A stretch of DNA of 48,084 bases from a virus: the IMG/VR virus record IMGVR_UViG_3300023184_000200, positions 1 to 48,084 of that record, one strand, 5' to 3'. How positions within the stretch are numbered: position 1 is the first letter of the stretch; each line of letters starts with the position of its first letter. The translations under genes and the position numbers were made by a program. The notes beneath the pieces were generated by a model, which saw nothing but the letters and a program-made list of their open reading frames with translations, was not told the DNA's origin and did not search any database. Shown here piece after piece: positions 34,965 through 44,930 of the stretch.

Positions 34965-35388
34965 GGTTTACTTCTATTCCTGATTTTTTAAGAAACTCGG
35001 TGCCGGTATCATCCCTGTATTTTTCTCTGTAAAAAACACGCTTGATACCACTTTGAAAAATTAGTTTGGCACAATCCAAGCAAGGACTATGAGTAATAAA
35101 CATATCACTGCCAAGGCCAGATTCATTCGACCTTGCCAACTTAGCGATTGCATTAGTTTCAGCATGAAGTACCTCCGGTTTGGTTGTTAAAAATTTTATG
35201 TCACCGTTGGGCCATTTAATTTCATCTTCACAATTGTTGTCCCAATCTGCTGGCATGCCATTATAGCCGATACTGATAATTCTATCATCTTTTACTACAA
35301 TAGCGCCAACATGTAATCGACGAGCATGGCTAAGTTCAGCAGTGCGCTGAGCAATGTCCATAAAATATTTGATAAATTTACTTTTCAA
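34942..35388 (-). CDS. dCMP/cytidine deaminase family enzyme
   Basis: A 148-residue zinc deaminase. VLHAETNAI carries the H75-A-E77 motif and SPCLDC carries C103-x2-C106. These ligands and the length agree with phage dCMP deaminase (T4 cd, 193 residues, is longer), which makes dUMP for thymidylate synthesis. It is coupled to iscA (4-nt overlap) and to the nuclease gene. The Ala-Arg-Arg-Leu segment near 22 (HARRLHVGAIVVKD) is typical for this family. Confidence 0.92.
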   Translation of the reverse strand: MKSKFIKYFMDIAQRTAELSHARRLHVGAIVVKDDRIISIGYNGMPADWDNNCEDEIKWPNGDIKFLTTKPEVLHAETNAIAKLARSNESGLGSDMFITHSPCLDCAKLIFQSGIKRVFYREKYRDDTGTEFLKKSGIEVNHVDDENV

Positions 35389-35705
35389 ATCCTAAAACTT
35401 TCTCCACATCCACAGCGGTCTCGTTCAAGAGGATTGTTAAATTCAAAGCCTTCGTTAAGACCCTGGCGCACATAGTCTACTTCGACTCCATTTAAGTATG
35501 CTGAACTCTTAGGATCAATCACTACAACAAAGCCATCTTGTTCAACTGCAATGTCTTCTGCATTAATGGTATCAACATATTCTAATACATAAGCAAGCCC
35601 TGAGCAACCAGTGGTCCGAACACCAAGTCGAATACCTACTCCTTGGCCACGTCGAGTCAAGTTAGATACAATTTTTTTAGAGGCAACATCAGTAACTGAG
35701 ATCAT
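35385..35705 (-). CDS. iscA: IscA/ErpA-type iron-sulfur carrier
   Basis: A 106-residue A-type carrier with all three cysteines: C34 in TTGCSGLAY and C98, C100 in the C-terminal CGCGESF. It accepts a cluster from the IscU scaffold and passes it to apo-proteins. TAA/ATG overlap with iscU upstream and 4-nt overlap with the deaminase. Length is that of cellular IscA (107). Presence in a phage operon with iscU and radical SAM genes suggests supply of clusters for phage enzymes. Confidence 0.93.
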   Translation of the reverse strand: MISVTDVASKKIVSNLTRRGQGVGIRLGVRTTGCSGLAYVLEYVDTINAEDIAVEQDGFVVVIDPKSSAYLNGVEVDYVRQGLNEGFEFNNPLERDRCGCGESFRI

Positions 35706-36082
35706 CAGTGTTTTTTACGGTAGTCTTCGATTGCGGCTTTTATAGCATCTTCTGCAAGTATGCTACAATGTATTTTAACCGGTGGTAAGGCAAGTTCTCC
35801 AGCAATATCCGAATTTTTAATCGTTCCTGCTTCGTCAAGCGTTTTTCCCTTAACCCATTCGGTGACAAGGCTTGAGCTGGCAATTGCCGATCCGCATCCG
35901 TACGTTTTAAATTTGGCATCAGTTATTACTCCTTCGGTATTTACTTTGATTTGAAGTTTCATGACGTCGCCACATGCAGGAGCGCCGACCATACCGGTTC
36001 CAATCGAGTCGTCTCCTTTGTCAAACGAACCCACGTTACGTGGATTTTCATAGTGATCTATTACTTTTTCCGAATATGCCAT
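35705..36082 (-). CDS. iscU: IscU iron-sulfur scaffold protein
   Basis: A 125-residue scaffold with C37 (GAPACGD, with D39), C63 (YGCGSAIASSS), C106 (KIHCSILAEDAI) and the HscA recognition peptide LPPVK (99-103). All catalytic positions are intact and the length equals E. coli IscU (128). No iscS, hscA or fdx lies in the window, so host cysteine desulfurase and chaperones must be used; intact LPPVK supports that. It heads the operon IscU - IscA - deaminase - nuclease and has its own extended -10 promoter. Confidence 0.95.
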   Translation of the reverse strand: MAYSEKVIDHYENPRNVGSFDKGDDSIGTGMVGAPACGDVMKLQIKVNTEGVITDAKFKTYGCGSAIASSSLVTEWVKGKTLDEAGTIKNSDIAGELALPPVKIHCSILAEDAIKAAIEDYRKKH

Positions 36083-36143: not shown

Positions 36144-37046
36144 TTATACGACTGGTTCTAGGGTGTATTGTTTTCGAGCTTGATTTTTAGTAACTGCAAA
36201 CAACCTATTTTTATACTCTAAACTTTCTGGGCAAAATTTGCACATGGTTAATTGTTTGTCAATCGTGGCCAAAAATTCAGCACCACGTTCTGGATACTCC
36301 CACGGCGATAACGGTTGATAGGAATTTAATATTGCTCGATCAGCGTCCGAAATATCAAATCCGTGTTGTTGATCAAACTCCGGGAACAATGCAGCTGGGC
36401 CACATTTATACAACCGGCCCTTGATCATATGGTAATTTTTATGGCGCCTAAATCCACAACTGTTGTGTGCCACATGCGGTCTACTGTTGTGTAGTGTAAA
36501 CTTGCCCGTAACATCTCGTTGTATAGCACTGTCGTAAAAATCATATTGGATCCACAGCGGAATGGCAACTCGGTTTTCATCTATCCATGTAACATCAGAC
36601 CCAAATACGTTGAGAGGATCATCTTTTTCTAACTTTGTAATGGTACCTTGAAGAAACTTGTAAACTTCAGTTTCAAACTCATCAATGGTGTTGGGATTGT
36701 GCCAACTGATGCCCATCCAGTTGCCATTGGCCTGTAGTGCTTCGTAAAGTCCTTTTACGTTGTTTAACCTTGTGCCGTTTGACAAGATCTGCACATTTCT
36801 TTTGAAGATACGATTGATTCCATATACCCAATCAAGTATGTCAGGATTAAGCAAGGGTTCCCCACCCAGTATCACTATCCGATCAACATCTACATACTCG
36901 GCCCATTTGGCATAGTCGGCTTCGTAGTCACTCCATCGTTGCCAGCCAGCAAATGAGTAGTTGTTAAATCGATTACAACCTTCGCAGGTCAAATTGCACA
37001 CGTTGGTTATATAGAACTCAAGTTTGGAGAATAAGTGTTTTTTCAT
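36144..37046 (-). CDS. Radical SAM protein (SPASM/Twitch-like auxiliary cysteines)
   Basis: From ATG 37046 the enzyme has 300 residues; ATG codons at 37061 and 37058 also exist but lie in the leader palindrome. C17-x3-C21-x2-C24 (VCNLTCEGC) binds the catalytic 4Fe-4S cluster, LGGEPLLNPDI carries the GGE motif for SAM, and extra cysteines occur at the end (NSCGFRR, LYKCGPA, MCKFCPE), consistent with an auxiliary cluster. Substrate unknown; SPASM/Twitch members modify peptides, nucleotides or sugars. Just upstream of iscU on the genome; no separate Shine-Dalgarno. Confidence 0.88.
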   Translation of the reverse strand: MKKHLFSKLEFYITNVCNLTCEGCNRFNNYSFAGWQRWSDYEADYAKWAEYVDVDRIVILGGEPLLNPDILDWVYGINRIFKRNVQILSNGTRLNNVKGLYEALQANGNWMGISWHNPNTIDEFETEVYKFLQGTITKLEKDDPLNVFGSDVTWIDENRVAIPLWIQYDFYDSAIQRDVTGKFTLHNSRPHVAHNSCGFRRHKNYHMIKGRLYKCGPAALFPEFDQQHGFDISDADRAILNSYQPLSPWEYPERGAEFLATIDKQLTMCKFCPESLEYKNRLFAVTKNQARKQYTLEPVV

Positions 37047-37055
37047 AGTATAGTG

Positions 37056-37091
37056 CATCATCTGATGATCAGATGATGTTAGATATTTACG
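37056..37091 (-). promoter_or_regulatory. Late-type promoter with perfect palindrome, radical SAM gene
   Basis: CGTAAATA (37091-37084) is followed 5 nt later by the palindrome CATCATCTGAT-C-ATCAGATGATG (37078-37056), an 11-bp hairpin with a 1-nt centre. It contains two in-frame ATG codons; the third ATG (37046) lies just past it. Confidence 0.6.
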
Positions 37092-37101
37092 ACTAATGTG
37101 T

Positions 37102-37437
37102 TTACTGGCGACGTTTTAATGCCGCTTTGGCATTGCTGTCTACTACGGCCCGAGCTTGGTCTACACTCATACCGGTTTCGGCTTCGGTATTGCCTTTGAA
37201 TCGAACCACACCCGAATTAGGTTCGAGTGGTTCTAGTATATTGCTTAATGGTTCTTGGCTGATTAAATCACCTAGGTTGGCTGAAGTAACGTTGACACCT
37301 AGGCTTTTGGCAGCGTCAATAAAAGCCTGTTGGCTAATTTGTTTTGCGGCGGCTTCGTCTTCGCTACGCCCAAGCAAAAACTGGCTTAATGCAGCCAGTC
37401 GTTGTGTGTTGGGATCTGCAACTTCTCGGATTAACAT
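37102..37437 (-). CDS. Hypothetical virion-region protein
   Basis: A 111-residue, mostly helical protein beginning MLIREVADPNTQRLAALSQF, ending with a basic tail (SNAKAALKRRQ). It forms a TAATG overlap with the 284-residue gene. The short start M-L-I-R-E-V resembles the starts of neighbours (M-K-L-Q-E-L and M-Q-I-H-E-I), which might mark a group of head proteins processed or targeted alike (inference). No known domain. Confidence 0.68.
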   Translation of the reverse strand: MLIREVADPNTQRLAALSQFLLGRSEDEAAAKQISQQAFIDAAKSLGVNVTSANLGDLISQEPLSNILEPLEPNSGVVRFKGNTEAETGMSVDQARAVVDSNAKAALKRRQ

Positions 37438-38291
37438 TATCTGCGTTCACGGCCTAAACCGGCTGCTTGTGCGGCGGCATCTAAATCAGCACCGGCTGCA
37501 TCTAAATCATCAATTTCTTCTTCGCCTGGAGTTGGCAAATCGGCAGGCATTTCGCCTCCCATGTCCGGAGCGGCGCCCATGTCAGCACCAGGAACTTGTG
37601 GCGCTTGTCCAGTGATCACCCCAAGTGCAGCTTCTAACTGTTGCTTGGCACCTTGTAAGTTGCCCAGTAAGCCACTCAATGCAGCACTGGCATCAGCGTT
37701 GTATTGTGTGGCCTGGTCGACCCCAACTTCATTTCTAATTTGATCCAACAGGGCTGGCAAGTCTTTGAACTGCATAGCACTTACCTGTTCACTCATCTTC
37801 TGCACTTGATCAACCATGTCTTGGCTTGCCAACACAACTTGAGCTTGTTGAATTTCACTTGCTTCACGCAGGCGACGAGCACGACGGCCTTCGGCCATAG
37901 CCATCATGGTTGGGTCATTCATTTGTTTTTGCAATTGAGCAATCTCACCTTGCTTGGCTTTGATAGCATCTTGAATTTGTTTTTTCTTTTGCTGGATCTG
38001 TGCGGCTTGCATTCCAGCTTGTGCTTGAGGATTTGCGGCACCCGGAGTAGTTGCTGCTGCGGCCAGCGCCTGTTCCATCATGACCAATTTCAAGTATGAT
38101 GGGTTACGCTCACTGTAGTGGAATTCTGGAGTGCGGCGATGTTCAGCAATTAAACCACGCACACGCTTGAGCATGTCTCGTGCTTGGCCTTTTGAAACAG
38201 TGTTGAAATCAACACGGTTGCCAAAATAGCTTTCAAAAACCTTAGCGGCTTGTTGTATTGGGTTGGCTACGGCCAGTTCTTGCAGTTTCAT
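37437..38291 (-). CDS. Helical scaffold-like or virion protein
   Basis: A 284-residue protein. Residues 1-80 are folded helical (SYFGNRVDFNTVSKGQARDM, NPSYLKLVMMEQALAAA); residues 85-215 are long coiled-coil-like helix (QIQQKKKQIQDAIKAKQGEI), then a Gly/Pro/Asp/Met-rich acidic tail (PGADMGAAPDMGGEMP). Coiled coil plus acidic tail is the composition of phage prohead core/scaffold proteins, but no direct homology is recognised. Preceded by a GCTAAATA motif at 38315-38322 (inside the upstream gene). Confidence 0.65.
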   Translation of the reverse strand: MKLQELAVANPIQQAAKVFESYFGNRVDFNTVSKGQARDMLKRVRGLIAEHRRTPEFHYSERNPSYLKLVMMEQALAAAATTPGAANPQAQAGMQAAQIQQKKKQIQDAIKAKQGEIAQLQKQMNDPTMMAMAEGRRARRLREASEIQQAQVVLASQDMVDQVQKMSEQVSAMQFKDLPALLDQIRNEVGVDQATQYNADASAALSGLLGNLQGAKQQLEAALGVITGQAPQVPGADMGAAPDMGGEMPADLPTPGEEEIDDLDAAGADLDAAAQAAGLGRERR

Positions 38292-39008: not shown

Positions 39009-39437
39009 TCAAGTATTTATGGATATAGGTGCGAACCAAATATTCTGTCTAGCACCTTCGGTAATCAATACCGTAGCAATATCAGGGTTGTTATCGAGTT
39101 CACGTAGCATGGGCACACCGTCGGCATCGGCACGTAGCACCGATACTGGGTCTGTAGTCGGACCGTATACACCGTCAAACTCAGTTTCAAATTCAAACAT
39201 CCAACGTGTGCCTGTTTGATCTGGTATAGGATCAGTCAACGCAAACAATTGGGTGCGTAAACTTAAAATTTGTGTAATTGTTTCCCAATTGCGTTGTTGG
39301 TTGCGACTGCGATTCCAAGACTCGGTATCGTGTATCAATTGCCCAGCATGGTCATGAAACGGCATTCGGCTTTGTTTACAGTGACCAGTTACTCCGGTGG
39401 CTGTGATATCAAACAAGGTTTGGCAGGCAAATTTCAT
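39009..39437 (-). CDS. Hypothetical phage protein
   Basis: A 142-residue protein. MKFACQTLFDITATGVTGHC, QSRMPFHDHAGQLIHDTESW and NQQRNWETITQILSLRTQLF are conspicuous, followed by WMFEFETEFDGVYG. The W-E-T-I-x-Q-x-L-S-L-R-x-Q element is familiar from uncharacterised T4-like phage proteins of aquatic hosts. It overlaps the next gene upstream by 4 nt. No catalytic motif; virion-associated by location. Confidence 0.7.
   Translation of the reverse strand: MKFACQTLFDITATGVTGHCKQSRMPFHDHAGQLIHDTESWNRSRNQQRNWETITQILSLRTQLFALTDPIPDQTGTRWMFEFETEFDGVYGPTTDPVSVLRADADGVPMLRELDNNPDIATVLITEGARQNIWFAPISINT
39014..39021 (-). promoter_or_regulatory. Late-type promoter (CATAAATA) of the holin-like gene
   Basis: CATAAATA (39021-39014) followed by GGAG and ATG 38996; overlaps the end of the upstream gene. 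Confidence 0.5.
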
Positions 39438-39688
39438 TCGGGCCGCTTGCTTAATTCGTAAAGTATTTCCACTTGCTCACACAAGTAGTCGAGTTCAGTG
39501 TTGTCTCGGCGAGCTTGAAAAATTTCAACCCAGCGTTTTGATCGTTCTAAGTCTTTGAGTTCTTGTTGTAGTTTAGGGTCTTGCCAGTGCAGTTCTCGTT
39601 TGGTAGAACCAGGGTTTCGAGCATAGACTGTGCGGCCGCCATCTGGGCTTTCAAACACTGTGAGCTCTGTAATTTTGCTGACCATCAT
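39434..39688 (-). CDS. Small hypothetical phage protein
   Basis: An 84-residue protein: MMVSKITELTVFESPDGGRT (beta), YARNPGSTKRELHW, then helices (KDLERSKRWVEIFQARRDNT, LCEQVEILYELSK). The pattern V-F-E-S-P-D-G-G-x-T-V-Y is familiar in small T4-like phage proteins. ATG 39688 lies 8 nt from TTAAATA and has no Shine-Dalgarno; a second Met follows directly. Unknown function. Confidence 0.7.
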   Translation of the reverse strand: MMVSKITELTVFESPDGGRTVYARNPGSTKRELHWQDPKLQQELKDLERSKRWVEIFQARRDNTELDYLCEQVEILYELSKRPE

Positions 39689-40249: not shown

Positions 40250-42175
40250 TTAGGAGTTAGCCACTGTTTCTGGGTTGTTTCTTTGGCGATTTGCTGAAGT
40301 AAATCCACCGGCAAGACGATTTACAGCTTTGGCTATACCTGCCGGGGTGGCCATGACCCAGCCCTCTTGTCCCGGATGCTGTAGGTCTAACTGCTGAAGA
40401 ACATCCATCTTGATATCGTGTAGTAATCCCCAAGCAGTAAATGCCGCAGCCATACCGGCCAAATTACTACGTGGACTTTGTAAGTATTCTACGATGTTCC
40501 GAAACTTCTTGGGTGTAACACGCTGTTGCAACCACGGACCAAAATCAGCCAACATGTTGTCAAATCCAGTGCCCACACGACTATTGATGTAGTCTATGCA
40601 TAACTTGGGCAAGTCGGTGATTTGTAACGCACGAAGTTCTGCTGGGTCAAACAGTTGATCAATGGCGGCACCTTGTGCGCTATAAACTGTTCTCAGCTGT
40701 TGTAACAGTTCTTTGTTGGGCTTGACATTTTCTTTGGCATACACTGGCTCTAATAACAGCAATCCGGGAACTGTTTTAAATTTAACATTGCCAATAGGTT
40801 CTTTGGCAGCACCTGGTTCAGCATACCGGGTGTGCATGGCAATGCCAACTTCACTGGCACCAATACGCTTGCCCACATCACTGTTGGCTGGAATTTTGTA
40901 TTCAATGGTGTTGGGTGTAAACACATAGTTGCCGGCTTCTAATGGAGGCGTCGCCATATACAACAGGTCACCTTGCACAAAACCTTGATAGTTTTTAGGC
41001 ACTGCGGCATCTAACATGCCCCATAACTTATCATAAATTGGTGCAAGATCTTGAACACGGGTTGCTGGTTTACCTAGCGCGGCCGCATCTGCATCTCTGG
41101 CAGCCAAGTGTTGACGAACTTGTCGAGGACTTGTGAACAGGCCGTTGTAACCTTTGGCAGTAAATCCTGATACATCAGTTAGTATGAATGTTCCTGTGGC
41201 ATCACGGCCAAATATCAGTGCAGGCTTGCCGTCCCATTTGACCGTAGTGGTTCGACCTGTATCAGCTGACGTGTGCTTGACAATGTCTATGGCTTTTTTA
41301 ATGCCTGCACTGCCGTTGCGAAACACATAGTCTTCAAGATGTTCAATGCCCTTGGCTCGGCCACCTTGCACTTCAGCTTCAACAATGACCTGCATGCCTT
41401 GATTCACAATGCGGTCACGTAAACGTGCTAGGAAGTGAACATCTGATACTGGTCGATACAGTTCGGCACTTTCTAAAAATGGCAAGCCTTCACGTTCCAT
41501 GTGTTGCTTAAAGTCGGCCAATTTGGCTTCACGTTGAGGGTCTGTGCTGAGAGCTTGTAATATTGCTTCAACGCTGGCTAGATCTTGTCGTGTGGCTGTT
41601 CGGTTCAACAGCATCTTGGCCACCCGATCTGGGTCGTCGGTAATGATTTCGTTGGTATTGCGATTAGCGATACCGGCTATTTGATTCAACTTGTATCCCA
41701 TGCTTTTGGCTATGCTGTTCATCAGCACATTGCGCTCACGTCCTTTGTATTTGCTGTCAGCTGGCATAGCACCCAACACAAACTTTGACCAGGGCACATT
41801 CTTCAACAACATAAAATCTGTTTGAACATAGCCGTTGGCAGGATTTCCAATGATAGGTGTAAGGAAATGTACCGCTGTGCCGGATTTTCGAACATAGTCC
41901 TCGGGCTTGAACCCGTGACTGGCCGCCCACTGTTTGAGTCTGGCTTCTAACTGTTCTTTAGTAACTGTGTTGGCATCTACAGCAATGTCCAAGTCACCCG
42001 AAGTGTCTTTGATGCCAGTGCTGCCTAGTGTATTGTTTTGTAAATCTAGTCCAGGCAATAATTCTTCCAACCAAGCAAGAGTAGGTTTAACGTCTGTTTG
42101 GTTGATGCGCTGGGTCACAGCCTGACCTTTGGCGTTCTTAAATACGTTGCCGCCTTCTTGTAAAGATTGTATCAT
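40250..42175 (-). CDS. Pol-beta-type nucleotidyltransferase fused to KxDG ligase-like domain
   Basis: A 641-residue protein. Domain 1 (about 30-210) has a Pol-beta nucleotidyltransferase core: GSTG (51-54), D61-L-D63 (SGDLDIAVD) and third acid D120 (YVQTDFMLL). Domain 2 (about 270-480) has covalent-nucleotidyltransferase features: K313 in KWDGKPALIFG (motif I), QGDLLY (401-406, like motif III), NTIEYKIP (422-429) and VKFK (464-467, like motif V). The C-terminal 170 residues are helical. The second part matches a phage family (which I recall as DUF6267) whose members carry KWDG and QGDLL. A combined NTase and ligase suggests end-repair of RNA or DNA. Follows the P/T-rich gene with a 4-nt overlap. 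Confidence 0.75.
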   Translation of the reverse strand: MIQSLQEGGNVFKNAKGQAVTQRINQTDVKPTLAWLEELLPGLDLQNNTLGSTGIKDTSGDLDIAVDANTVTKEQLEARLKQWAASHGFKPEDYVRKSGTAVHFLTPIIGNPANGYVQTDFMLLKNVPWSKFVLGAMPADSKYKGRERNVLMNSIAKSMGYKLNQIAGIANRNTNEIITDDPDRVAKMLLNRTATRQDLASVEAILQALSTDPQREAKLADFKQHMEREGLPFLESAELYRPVSDVHFLARLRDRIVNQGMQVIVEAEVQGGRAKGIEHLEDYVFRNGSAGIKKAIDIVKHTSADTGRTTTVKWDGKPALIFGRDATGTFILTDVSGFTAKGYNGLFTSPRQVRQHLAARDADAAALGKPATRVQDLAPIYDKLWGMLDAAVPKNYQGFVQGDLLYMATPPLEAGNYVFTPNTIEYKIPANSDVGKRIGASEVGIAMHTRYAEPGAAKEPIGNVKFKTVPGLLLLEPVYAKENVKPNKELLQQLRTVYSAQGAAIDQLFDPAELRALQITDLPKLCIDYINSRVGTGFDNMLADFGPWLQQRVTPKKFRNIVEYLQSPRSNLAGMAAAFTAWGLLHDIKMDVLQQLDLQHPGQEGWVMATPAGIAKAVNRLAGGFTSANRQRNNPETVANS

Positions 42176-43566
42176 GCTAGTCCCAATGCTGTTTTAATTT
42201 GGTATGCTGTAGCAGGATCTTTTGCCATCTTTTTAATATTTTCAATTTGATTAGAGTTCAGTACCTTTGACAACGGAGTAAGTGAAGAGACTTGGCTACT
42301 GGGATTTTTTTCTCGTTGTAGTTTTCGCTGAGAAGCTGACAATTTTTGCATGGCTTGTCCTACCATTACTAGGTATTGTTCTACTGCTGTTTGATTTGCT
42401 TTAGGGTCTTGTTGAGTAGCAACAACTTGTACCAAGGCTTGATTTAATCCGCGGCTCATATCTGGCATTTTTTCTACATCAGCTAACCCAAGTCCAGAAG
42501 ATTTATCTTCTACTTTTGATGCCGCCCAGTTTTTAAAGTTCTGAGCATATCTACTCTGCAACAGAGGAGGTGCCTTGATGCCTGCAGGTTTGGCTGTGAC
42601 CGCAGGAGCTACTGCTCCACCTGCGGCAGGTTTGGCACCAGGTAAGTCAGCGAATGCTTCATTGGTTAGACCTCTTTGTTTGGCATCAGCGGCCGCAATT
42701 TTTTGTTGTAATATTTCATACTCGTCCGCAGATGGCAAGCCTGGAGACGACTTGGTAATTTTAGTAGTAGGTGTTAACCATTTTGGCGCTGTTTTTGCCG
42801 CAACAGTGTCTGGCATTGCTGCAGGTGCAGTTTGTGGCTTGGCCGCATGGAATCGCCCTGTTGGCATCTGTGTAGTTGTGCCGCCGGTACTGGAAGCAGA
42901 TTTGTTGGCGCCACTCAACTGTTGAGCCAGTTGTCCAAATGAGTTTCCTGTTGGAGCAGTTGCTCGAGCACGACTGTTGCGTTGACGTATGGCGTTAGGG
43001 GTTTGACTGACAACTCCAGGTTGTTTTCCACCAGTGCGCTGTTTTGCCACTGCTGGTGCAGTAACAGGAGTTGGCGTGGTTGCCACTGTTGGAGTGGCCG
43101 CTGTAGTTGGCTGCGGCAATCCTGTTGTGGCCATTGGGTTAGGAATACCAGCTAGTGCATTAGTTGTTACGTTTTTATATGCAGGACCATAGCTAGGAGT
43201 TTTTGTAGACGTTGCTGGCACAACAGGTGCTGGTGCCACTGTTGGCTTGGGTGCAGGTGCGGTTGCAGCCGGTTGTGTCTGTGCCGTAGGCGTTTGTATT
43301 GACGGTCTAGGTTGCTTTAACCATTCTCCGGACAATTTCTTTGCCCATGCTGTCAAGTCGGCCTGTTGTTGTTGGCCCACTAGTCCTTGATAATACTTGT
43401 TTTGGGCATCGCCGTAGCCTCTTGCGCTGGTAAATGAGTTGGGCGTGTTCATAGCGACTTTGGCCTTGTCAAACGGAGCCTTGACAGCATTTTTAATATC
43501 TGACCCTATTGTTCTGGCTATATCGCCCAGGCCTTCTTGAACCAGTGTTATTTCATGAATTTGCAT
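42172..43566 (-). CDS. Low-complexity Pro/Thr/Ala-rich virion-region protein
   Basis: A 464-residue protein. N-terminus MQIHEITLVQEGLGDIARTI (with later YGDAQNKYYQGLVGQQQQA); residues about 90-280 are low complexity (P, T, A, Q, V); C-terminus (VEKMPDMSRGLNQALVQVV, AVEQYLVMVGQAMQKLSASQ) is helical. Possibly an internal head or assembly protein. It overlaps genes on both sides (14 nt and 4 nt). Confidence 0.68.
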   Translation of the reverse strand: MQIHEITLVQEGLGDIARTIGSDIKNAVKAPFDKAKVAMNTPNSFTSARGYGDAQNKYYQGLVGQQQQADLTAWAKKLSGEWLKQPRPSIQTPTAQTQPAATAPAPKPTVAPAPVVPATSTKTPSYGPAYKNVTTNALAGIPNPMATTGLPQPTTAATPTVATTPTPVTAPAVAKQRTGGKQPGVVSQTPNAIRQRNSRARATAPTGNSFGQLAQQLSGANKSASSTGGTTTQMPTGRFHAAKPQTAPAAMPDTVAAKTAPKWLTPTTKITKSSPGLPSADEYEILQQKIAAADAKQRGLTNEAFADLPGAKPAAGGAVAPAVTAKPAGIKAPPLLQSRYAQNFKNWAASKVEDKSSGLGLADVEKMPDMSRGLNQALVQVVATQQDPKANQTAVEQYLVMVGQAMQKLSASQRKLQREKNPSSQVSSLTPLSKVLNSNQIENIKKMAKDPATAYQIKTALGLA

Positions 43567-43801
43567 CGGTGCGTCTCACAGTGCGGGTAAATTTACCTGG
43601 ATCACGCTGGCTAATGGCATTGATCAATTTACGCTGTAGATTTTGAGCATCGTCGCTATTGTAAGTAGAGTCAATCTGCTCCAACAAGCGTATAGCACTG
43701 GCTATCACGTTAGATGCGCGGTTTTCAATGACATGGCGCTGATCGCGCTCAATATACATTGAGTCTAATTCTTCTAATAAACTGCGAGTTTTCTTTTGCA
43801 T
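43553..43801 (-). CDS. Small helical phage protein
   Basis: An 82-residue protein: KTRSLLEELDSMYIERDQRH, VIENRASNVIASAIRLLEQI, LQRKLINAISQRDPGKFTRT. This L-L-E-E-L-D-S-x-Y-x-E-R-D pattern is common to small uncharacterised proteins of T4-like phages. AATAAATA promoter motif upstream with AAAGGTCC. Overlaps the low-complexity gene. Function unknown; possibly assembly. Confidence 0.72.
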   Translation of the reverse strand: MQKKTRSLLEELDSMYIERDQRHVIENRASNVIASAIRLLEQIDSTYNSDDAQNLQRKLINAISQRDPGKFTRTVRRTDANS

Positions 43802-43850: not shown

Positions 43851-44930
43851 TCAAATAAATTGAACCAAATCTGGAAATGCTGCTTGCCAACTGTTATTTC
43901 TACGGGCGTCCCAAGTTTTAACAAATTGTTGCCAATTACTTGGCGAATCAGGCTCTGACAGGTTTGCTACTATTTTATGTATGATATGCTCTGCTGGGTA
44001 TTTTGCTTGCACTAACTCGCGAATTGCCAGGGGCATTTTTGTCAAGGCCCATGTGCCCCAACACTGATGAATGTTAATTTCTGTTGAGTCTCCAAATAAA
44101 TTGGTGTTTAAGTTATCTTTAATCCAATTTTCTAATCGATCAAAGTAATATGTATTGAGAAAATTAGCTGTAAATTCTACTCTAAACATCAAATTCCATA
44201 TATCTTTGTTTTCTCTCAAACGAATTAAATTTTTACTAACTTTACTCCAGGGCAACGGCCATCGCACATAATCAAATTGTTCGTCAATGCCGTCTAAACT
44301 TGCGGCAAAAATTATTGTTTTAAATTTTTTCCATTCGTTGAGAACTGCATCATTGGGGTATATAGAACCATTGGTTGTATAGTGCAGTGTTACTTGTTCT
44401 GGATGTGGTATATGTTTTATAAATTTTAAATGGGTGTCTGTAAATAATGGCTCGCCACCAAAAAATCTAACATATTTTAATTTTGTCAACGATACTGTAT
44501 TAACAATTTGATCAATTAATCTGTCAACGAGATTTTCAGATTTGACATTTATTATTTTATTGTTTAATTTTGACTCTTCTTTTGCCCATAACGAACTGCT
44601 GTCCTTATCACAAATTACGCAGGCCGCATTGCAATTTTTGTCTAAATTAATATCAATCGTTATTGGATCTTGAGACGTTTCAGAATCATCAATCCAGTCT
44701 GGTCCAGTTTGCCTTAAACTTTGTTGTCCTGCATTTTCTAATATTTTACAGACAGAACACCCAGGAGTCCAACTGTTGATTGTGTCGAACTCTGATTTAC
44801 GATTTTGTAATATTTGAGAATCAAACGGAATTTTATTATAAAAACAACAAGGCCCTACTGTAACAGAATTATTTTTGGTTACATTAAATGAATAGCCATT
44901 AGACAAATATCTACAAAATTGATTTGGCAT
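43851..44930 (-). CDS. Twitch-type radical SAM protein
   Basis: A 359-residue radical SAM enzyme. The N-terminal part has CCFYNK (28-33) and GCSVCK (57-62), suggesting an extra cluster of the Twitch/SPASM kind; the core motif is C100-x3-C104-x2-C107 (NCNAACVIC); FFGGEPLFTDTHL carries GGE. Similar proteins occur in T4-like phages of aquatic bacteria and are uncharacterised. Substrate could be a peptide or nucleotide. The gene is AT-rich compared with the helicase upstream. Starts with a TAATG overlap to the helicase stop. Confidence 0.87.
   Translation of the reverse strand: MPNQFCRYLSNGYSFNVTKNNSVTVGPCCFYNKIPFDSQILQNRKSEFDTINSWTPGCSVCKILENAGQQSLRQTGPDWIDDSETSQDPITIDINLDKNCNAACVICDKDSSSLWAKEESKLNNKIINVKSENLVDRLIDQIVNTVSLTKLKYVRFFGGEPLFTDTHLKFIKHIPHPEQVTLHYTTNGSIYPNDAVLNEWKKFKTIIFAASLDGIDEQFDYVRWPLPWSKVSKNLIRLRENKDIWNLMFRVEFTANFLNTYYFDRLENWIKDNLNTNLFGDSTEINIHQCWGTWALTKMPLAIRELVQAKYPAEHIIHKIVANLSEPDSPSNWQQFVKTWDARRNNSWQAAFPDLVQFI

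Follow-up and report, generated by a model that had tools for sequence, protein, structure and literature searches.

The locus analysed here raises the question of why a phage gene lying near putative virion genes should join a Pol-beta nucleotidyltransferase to a ligase-like domain, and where such enzymes would act. The window, that is, the whole stretch of DNA analysed, was a 48-kb fragment (48,084 nucleotides) from the IMG/VR record IMGVR_UViG_3300023184_000200. On its minus strand, a frame of 641 amino acids was found running from 42175 to 40250, with an ATG start and zero internal stops. We consider it rather probable that this gene of a large freshwater phage encodes a head-targeted polyprotein that would be cut into two injected end-processing enzymes. 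At least 598 relatives were found in viral contigs, the best 80 of which all had both halves, and a 344-kb relative contig carried the same gene in the same gene order. The positions given for the catalytic motifs in an initial annotation of this DNA (GST at 51-53, D61-x-D63, D120, KWDG at 313-316 and QGDLL at 401-405) were all correct. The gene and the features of its first half were the following:

40250..42175, minus strand: complete gene (641 aa), with a lead peptide, a Pol-beta/Pol X-like domain, a putatively cleavable linker and a DUF6267 ligase-like domain
41471..42154, minus strand: Pol-beta nucleotidyltransferase domain, residues 8-235, with a Pol X-like palm and a probable thumb (AlphaFold, Foldseek)
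42014..42025, minus strand: GSTG, residues 51-54, the Pol-beta signature, conserved in relatives
41987..41998, minus strand: GDLD, residues 60-63, with the catalytic D61 and D63 (DxD in 130/130 distinct homologues)
41816..41818, minus strand: D120, the third catalytic carboxylate (VQTDFM), invariant in alignment A3, its pattern present in 127/130

The intact Pol-beta triad and the fold that had been proposed for the first half were both borne out. Residues 1-246 were modelled by AlphaFold with a pLDDT of 92, and both the G[ST]...DxD...D triad and the palm fold of the Pol-beta nucleotidyltransferase superfamily were present. Across 72 full-length relatives (63-93% identity), the triad and the KWDG and QGDLL of the second half were invariant or nearly so. 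Loss of D61, D63 or K313 in homologues, which the initial annotation had said would speak against its reading, was not seen, DxD being kept in 130/130 and KWDG or KYDG in 245/245. In Foldseek searches, this half matched Pol lambda, Pol beta, Pol mu and PolX with an E-value of about 6e-5 and a probability of 1.0; a total of 81 matches fell below 1e-3, and 50 out of the 50 matches listed belonged to these polymerases, with modest TM-scores (0.39-0.48 on the query). The palm fold and the GS...DxD...D triad, and probably a thumb hairpin, are shared with the Pol X family (Pol beta, lambda, mu, bacterial PolX and ASFV Pol X). Unlike the members of that family, the phage protein lacks the N-terminal 8-kDa and fingers region as well as a BRCT domain, as too few residues precede the palm (about 50 before GST51, with one helix there in the model), and it is joined to a ligase-like domain. 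Its match to the Pol-beta thumb (PF14791) was weak and below the Pfam cut-off, as were those found in 19 of 57 family members. The thumb hairpin aligned with a Pol X sequence (hhalign E 0.00033), although one-to-one E-values near 0.003 arise by chance in these comparisons. In profile comparisons, no alignment was obtained between this half and CCA-adding enzymes.

Membership in RlaP (PF10127) was also considered, and it was rejected after zero matches among the 57 family members at E-values up to 1. RlaP, a Pol-beta associated with RNA ligases in the RNA repair of phages, has been proposed to restore missing nucleotides before sealing (PMC7824862). Both are Pol-beta nucleotidyltransferases found in the genomic company of a ligase-like enzyme, but here the two are fused rather than merely co-encoded, with head-protease sites. 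A bacterial origin was likewise considered and rejected, as 84,980 species genomes were searched and yielded no Pol-beta relative. The Pol-beta of phage Phosso, used as a query against viral contigs, found nothing.

The features of the second half were the following:

40253..41347, minus strand: DUF6267 ligase-like nucleotidyltransferase domain, residues 277-641, its motifs III and IV separated by a large helical insertion (Pfam PF19782, AlphaFold, Foldseek)
41228..41239, minus strand: KWDG, residues 313-316, motif I, with the predicted AMP-accepting lysine K313 (KWDG in 244/245, KYDG in 1/245)
40958..40972, minus strand: GDLLY, residues 402-406, at the position of motif III, conserved
40355..40366, minus strand: EGWV, residues 604-607, motif IV, missed by the initial annotation (EG[YWF]V in 243/245)
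40316..40330, minus strand: KAVNR, residues 616-620, motif V, replacing VKFK (KxVxR in 243/245)

This half had been described as an uncharacterised phage family, and it indeed matched Pfam DUF6267 (PF19782; E 2.6e-29, 103.2 bits, cut-off 27) and PHROG 455, both of which are functionless annotations; no paper naming DUF6267 was found in the literature searched. Conserved across DUF6267 were KWDG (KYDG once), GD(L/M/F) or GEV, EG(Y/W/F)V and KxVxR, whose positions and order agree with those of the ligase/capping superfamily motifs I, III, IV and V. The motifs are atypical in two respects, the usual KxK being absent from motif V and Asp standing in place of Glu in motif III. The stretch VKFK (464-467), previously taken as motif V, was conserved in close relatives only, and this role passes to KAVNR.

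AlphaFold modelled the ligase half with a pLDDT of 88. Against solved structures, the adenylyltransferase domain of the fungal tRNA ligase Trl1 came first (E 0.008), with ASFV ligase and human DNA ligase I (LIG1) also near the top and capping enzymes lower; no solved structure matched below E 0.001 in Foldseek, and no sequence relatives were found in the PDB. Against predicted viral structures, DUF6267 proteins came first, followed by a 446-aa PA5oct protein (E 1.5e-6), whose length matches that of EST35_0228, encoded three genes from the Pol-beta gene of that phage. An 'RNA ligase' of Agrobacterium phage Atu_ph07 was matched with an E-value of 0.003. The Atu_ph07 protein itself showed a weak match to PF09414 RNA_ligase (E 0.002), and no match to PF09414 was found in the 641-aa protein at E-values up to 5. 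When DUF6267 was compared by profile with the ligases of Atu_ph07, Phosso and PA5oct, KWDG aligned to KLDG with an E-value of 0.0012, which counts little since an unrelated control reached 0.0031. Among bacterial genomes, DUF6267 relatives appeared in MAG/SAG-type contigs only (≤35% identity), and the contigs carrying the ligase domain are probably phage contigs. The ligase-like character claimed for this half was supported by the motif order, the fold matches and the Atu_ph07 gene lying beside Pol-beta; the choice of VKFK as motif V was not, and the match to solved structures was faint. The DUF6267 half very probably belongs to the ligase/capping covalent nucleotidyltransferase superfamily, with end-sealing itself being a prediction.

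The association of the two domains was examined in 80 phage loci selected with the Pol-beta motifs alone, in which DUF6267 was then sought by profile search. It was present in 78 of them, fused to Pol-beta in one frame in 33 and as a separate gene of the same locus in 45, while the other two lacked it. As the loci were chosen on Pol-beta, a pairing in 78/80 is no accident, and such constancy would be expected of two steps in one pathway. The Pol-beta genes of Phosso and Atu_ph07 each overlap, in place of DUF6267, a ligase-like gene with KLDG, and ligase-like genes with KLDG or KIDG are the Pol-beta partners in Atu_ph07, Phosso and PA5oct. Bigger fusions include a cytidylyltransferase-like domain, or HAD and HD domains, the latter two fitting, as we infer, a clean-up of 3' ends ahead of sealing. 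Furthermore, a separate conventional RNA ligase is present in some of the phages carrying these domains.

If the protein is packaged as proposed, its substrate may instead be DNA, a Pol X-like gap filler and a ligase together mending nicks and gaps in the injected genome, a task that has been ascribed to Pol X and ligase in African swine fever virus. This is a serious possibility, less probable than not: the nearest folds of the first half are those of the DNA polymerases beta, lambda, mu and bacterial PolX, the thumb matches and the unaligned CCA-adding enzymes point the same way, the second half has ASFV ligase and DNA ligase I among its top fold matches, and some of these phages already have an RNA ligase. 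Against it, ATP-dependent DNA ligases require an OB-fold domain with motif VI, which is absent here, the protein ending about 20 residues past motif V. Moreover, EG(Y/W/F)V is the RNA-ligase-like form of motif IV, the best fold match of the ligase half is a tRNA ligase, and HAD and HD partners suit the healing of RNA ends. An RNA substrate is therefore slightly favoured over DNA.

Another alternative, which we regard as unlikely, is that the DUF6267 half, though a ligase-superfamily adenylyltransferase, does not seal ends and passes AMP to a protein or small molecule, for example in NAD metabolism or in the modification of host factors. Hundreds of sequenced phages carry DUF6267, most of them cyanophages, and it is a single-domain gene in many T4-like cyanophages. 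In cyanophages, its neighbour or fusion partner is a cytidylyltransferase/NMNAT-like gene, with no Pol-beta gene seen alongside, which favours such a role, as do the weak ligase E-values and the atypical motifs III and V. However, the partner of Pol-beta is nearly always DUF6267 or a KLDG/KIDG ligase-like gene, which argues for end repair.

The candidate prohead-protease sites, with a slash marking the proposed cut, lay in the following features:

42155..42175, minus strand: residues 1-7 (MIQSLQE), a lead ending L-Q-E/GGN with a conserved pattern, proposed to target the capsid and to be cleaved after E7 by a T4 gp21-type protease
41348..41470, minus strand: disordered linker between the domains, residues 236-276 (pLDDT below 50 over 240-275)
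41375..41386, minus strand: I-V-E/A, residues 264-267, proposed prohead-protease site between Pol-beta and ligase, from linker motif statistics

In the AlphaFold model, residues 1-3 had a pLDDT below 50 and the first ten residues averaged 64. Nearly every Pol-beta copy begins with M-x(n)-[ILV]-x-E/GGN, and the fusion relatives listed all had [ILV]-x-E before GGN, in a lead otherwise variable in length and sequence. Since leadless homologues start straight at the core GG or SG residues, the lead motif is not part of the fold. Within the linker, [ILV]-x-E-[AGSDQ] was found just ahead of the ligase domain in 20 out of 20 non-redundant linkers, compared with a mean of 2.7/20 (maximum of 10 in 2000 trials) in shuffled linkers and with 11.5% of other stretches of the fusion proteins. 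At both sites, the Glu and the hydrophobic residue two before it were kept, while the remaining lead or linker varied. In larger fusions, sites of the same type also appeared before the HAD and Pol-beta domains. Stand-alone ligases showed leads such as MKFNEFNNILRE/GARIDHAED, MRAFEFLTE/AKKVGRE and MLNFSGFLAE/DKGGKN; these T4-style leads were present in 76/78 members of one group and 43/45 of another, and in 0/79 of the main cyanophage group. Across the whole genome of the 344-kb relative, lead-like N-termini were non-significant with a loose pattern and above chance only with stricter, post hoc patterns, and for that reason this enrichment was given no weight. The initial annotation had envisaged coupled nucleotide addition and sealing; with a conserved protease site in the disordered linker, the two activities probably end up in separate enzymes.

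Apart from the sites themselves, very low synonymous variation was observed at codons 259-260 among 65 distinct relatives (Gln259 CAA in 64/65, Gly260 GGC in 61/65). These codons directly precede an internal ATG (M261) opening M-Q-V-I-V-E/A, ahead of which the DNA showed no ribosome-binding site at a suitable distance; M261 could be an internal start for the ligase half, either a relic or functional.

Neighbouring genes with sites of this type, or with matches to virion proteins, were the following:

42172..43566, minus strand: upstream neighbour, a low-complexity protein of 464 aa, N-terminus MQIHEITLVQE/G, site kept in most diverged homologues
43553..43801, minus strand: 82-aa protein, PHROG 11854 'virion structural protein', 40% identity to its PA5oct counterpart
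39434..39688, minus strand: 84-aa neighbour, N-terminus MMVSKITELTVFE/S, site conserved
37437..38291, minus strand: 284-aa protein, PHROG 14154 'virion structural protein', N-terminus ending KVFE/S, PA5oct homologue detected by MS

Conserved sites of the same type were present on three neighbours (42172-43566, 39434-39688 and 37437-38291). The 42172-43566 protein is rich in Pro, Ala and Thr, and its length varies highly among relatives (236 aa in the 344-kb contig), with the N-terminal site mostly kept. The description of the surroundings as a virion gene block held in part: two genes flanking 40250-42175 match PHROG 'virion structural protein' families and the corresponding PA5oct block is largely MS-positive, but directly upstream, in the window and in relatives, lie DNA primase and DnaB-type helicase genes. 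The PA5oct block is the counterpart of this block of the window, sharing the helicase (52%), the 82-aa protein (40%), the 284-aa protein and an exonuclease. Most of its proteins, EST35_0231 (the Pol-beta) among them, bear the annotation 'structural protein, ESI-MS/MS', and its ligase-like gene does not carry that annotation. As this Pol-beta is virion-annotated and yet has no lead peptide, the lead is not the sole route into the virion. No tRNA genes were found in the window.

Peptidase S77 (T4 gp21-type) was encoded by 9/9 isolates with either domain and by 6/7 contigs of at least 145 kb, including the 344-kb relative; neither a prohead protease nor a capsid gene was found in the 48-kb window, which is a fragment. 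The capsid protein and protease propeptides of related phages were rich in [IL]-x-E. In T4, gp21 cleaves after Glu, and the injected Alt is cut at ITE-6 and LTE-619 (PMC5694885), so that a six-residue lead is sufficient there; T4 lead peptides direct proteins into the head (PMC9958956). In virions of cyanophage S-SZBM1, the cytidylyltransferase beside DUF6267 was detected and the DUF6267 ligase was not (PMC9146016); the former has the lead MRFRQFIIE/A, and the adjoining DUF6267 has none. Similar enzymes were detected in S-CREM2 and S-SCSM1 virions, where the authors considered carry-over after purification possible (PMC10665884, PMC9602691). The suggestion that the protein is packaged and injected has thereby gained independent support from the PA5oct MS annotation, the lead and linker sites and the S77 genes, and we infer, on good support, that the 641-aa protein is processed and packaged. 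An ordinary, unpackaged repair enzyme that works inside the cell and is produced alongside the replication proteins, with L-x-E motifs that are coincidental or serve folding, would agree with the position immediately downstream of primase and DnaB helicase and with the retention of leadless cyanophage ligases undetected in S-SZBM1 virions, but it is improbable given the Glu and hydrophobic residue kept at both sites amid variable sequence, the homologues that dispense with the lead residues, the disorder around the linker site, the same signal on neighbouring virion genes and the virion-detected Pol-beta of PA5oct.

According to the packaged-polyprotein reading, the short N-terminal peptide would carry the polyprotein into the assembling prohead, where the prohead protease (gp21 type, peptidase S77) would trim the lead after E7 and cut the disordered linker after E266. 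In the mature head, the Pol X-like nucleotidyltransferase would then be detached from the ligase-like adenylyltransferase, and both would enter the cell together with the phage DNA. There, the Pol X-like enzyme may refill nucleotides lost at broken ends, and the ligase-like enzyme, charged with AMP on K313, may join the refilled ends. Injection would allow the pair to act before or without phage translation, the candidate substrates being tRNAs or other RNAs cut by a host defence, or an incoming genome with nicks and gaps. When a host defence cuts tRNAs, translation halts, so a quick phage answer would be available only if the repair enzymes arrive premade; an injected enzyme pair, if true, would explain such a rapid answer. 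More broadly, there is about an even chance that large T4-related phages package polyproteins of Pol X-like, ligase-like, HAD, HD and NMNAT-like enzymes, freed on head maturation and co-injected as a repair kit; in such proteins, prohead-protease sites probably precede other domains besides Pol-beta and ligase.

Effectors that are packaged in the head and trimmed by a protease are already known, as are end-repair enzymes of phages. The resemblance to T4 Alt and IPI-III lies in the short N-terminal lead ending in (I/L)-x-E, of similar length to the Alt propeptide (6 residues, ITE), and in the T4-type protease of these phages. In contrast, the injected T4 proteins are an ADP-ribosyltransferase and defence inhibitors rather than repair enzymes, and a Pol X-like/ligase-like polyprotein with an internal prohead-protease site parting two enzyme domains was undescribed in the literature searched, most subscription papers lying outside that search. 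The polyvalent proteins of phages and plasmids are likewise multi-domain and proposed to be packaged and injected (PMC5512222). However, many of them bear their own peptidase, while here the proposed cutter is the prohead protease, with sites at the domain borders. Relative to other members of DUF6267/PHROG 455, the domain studied here differs in being fused to Pol-beta with a protease site before it, whereas it stands alone and leadless in one large group of cyanophages. DUF6267 gains a testable identity, that of an adenylyltransferase of the ligase superfamily, and in many phages the Pol X-like nucleotidyltransferase emerges as its constant partner. Precise predictions follow, namely that the protein is cleaved after E7 and E266 and packaged in the head, and, if they are true, the prohead protease would be a polyprotein protease, beyond removing scaffold and leads.

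Finally, some further observations were made on these loci. In the window, two adjoining genes (35385-36082) resemble by sequence IscA-like and IscU-like Fe-S cluster assembly proteins, which is unusual for a phage, and they lie near two radical SAM genes (36144-37061 and 43851-44930). In cyanophage S-PM2 (AJ630128, L086 6019-7798), DUF6267 is split and its C-terminal part reads into the cytidylyltransferase; a 591-aa S-PM2 cytidyltransferase-like protein in the viral structure library matches the ligase model, so the split in AJ630128 may be a frameshift. Flavobacterium phage immuto (L089 6908-9631) has, by eye, a second Pol-beta seemingly fused to a NadR/NMNAT-like domain, beside the first Pol-beta. 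In five phages, genes near DUF6267/Pol-beta that had no Pfam match and no known function showed by eye a pattern resembling the PD-(D/E)xK nuclease core:

L083 5154-5933: PD-(D/E)xK-like gene
L084 4896-5981: PD-(D/E)xK-like gene
L085 5028-5945: PD-(D/E)xK-like gene
L087 4647-5666: PD-(D/E)xK-like gene
L090 4835-5980: PD-(D/E)xK-like gene
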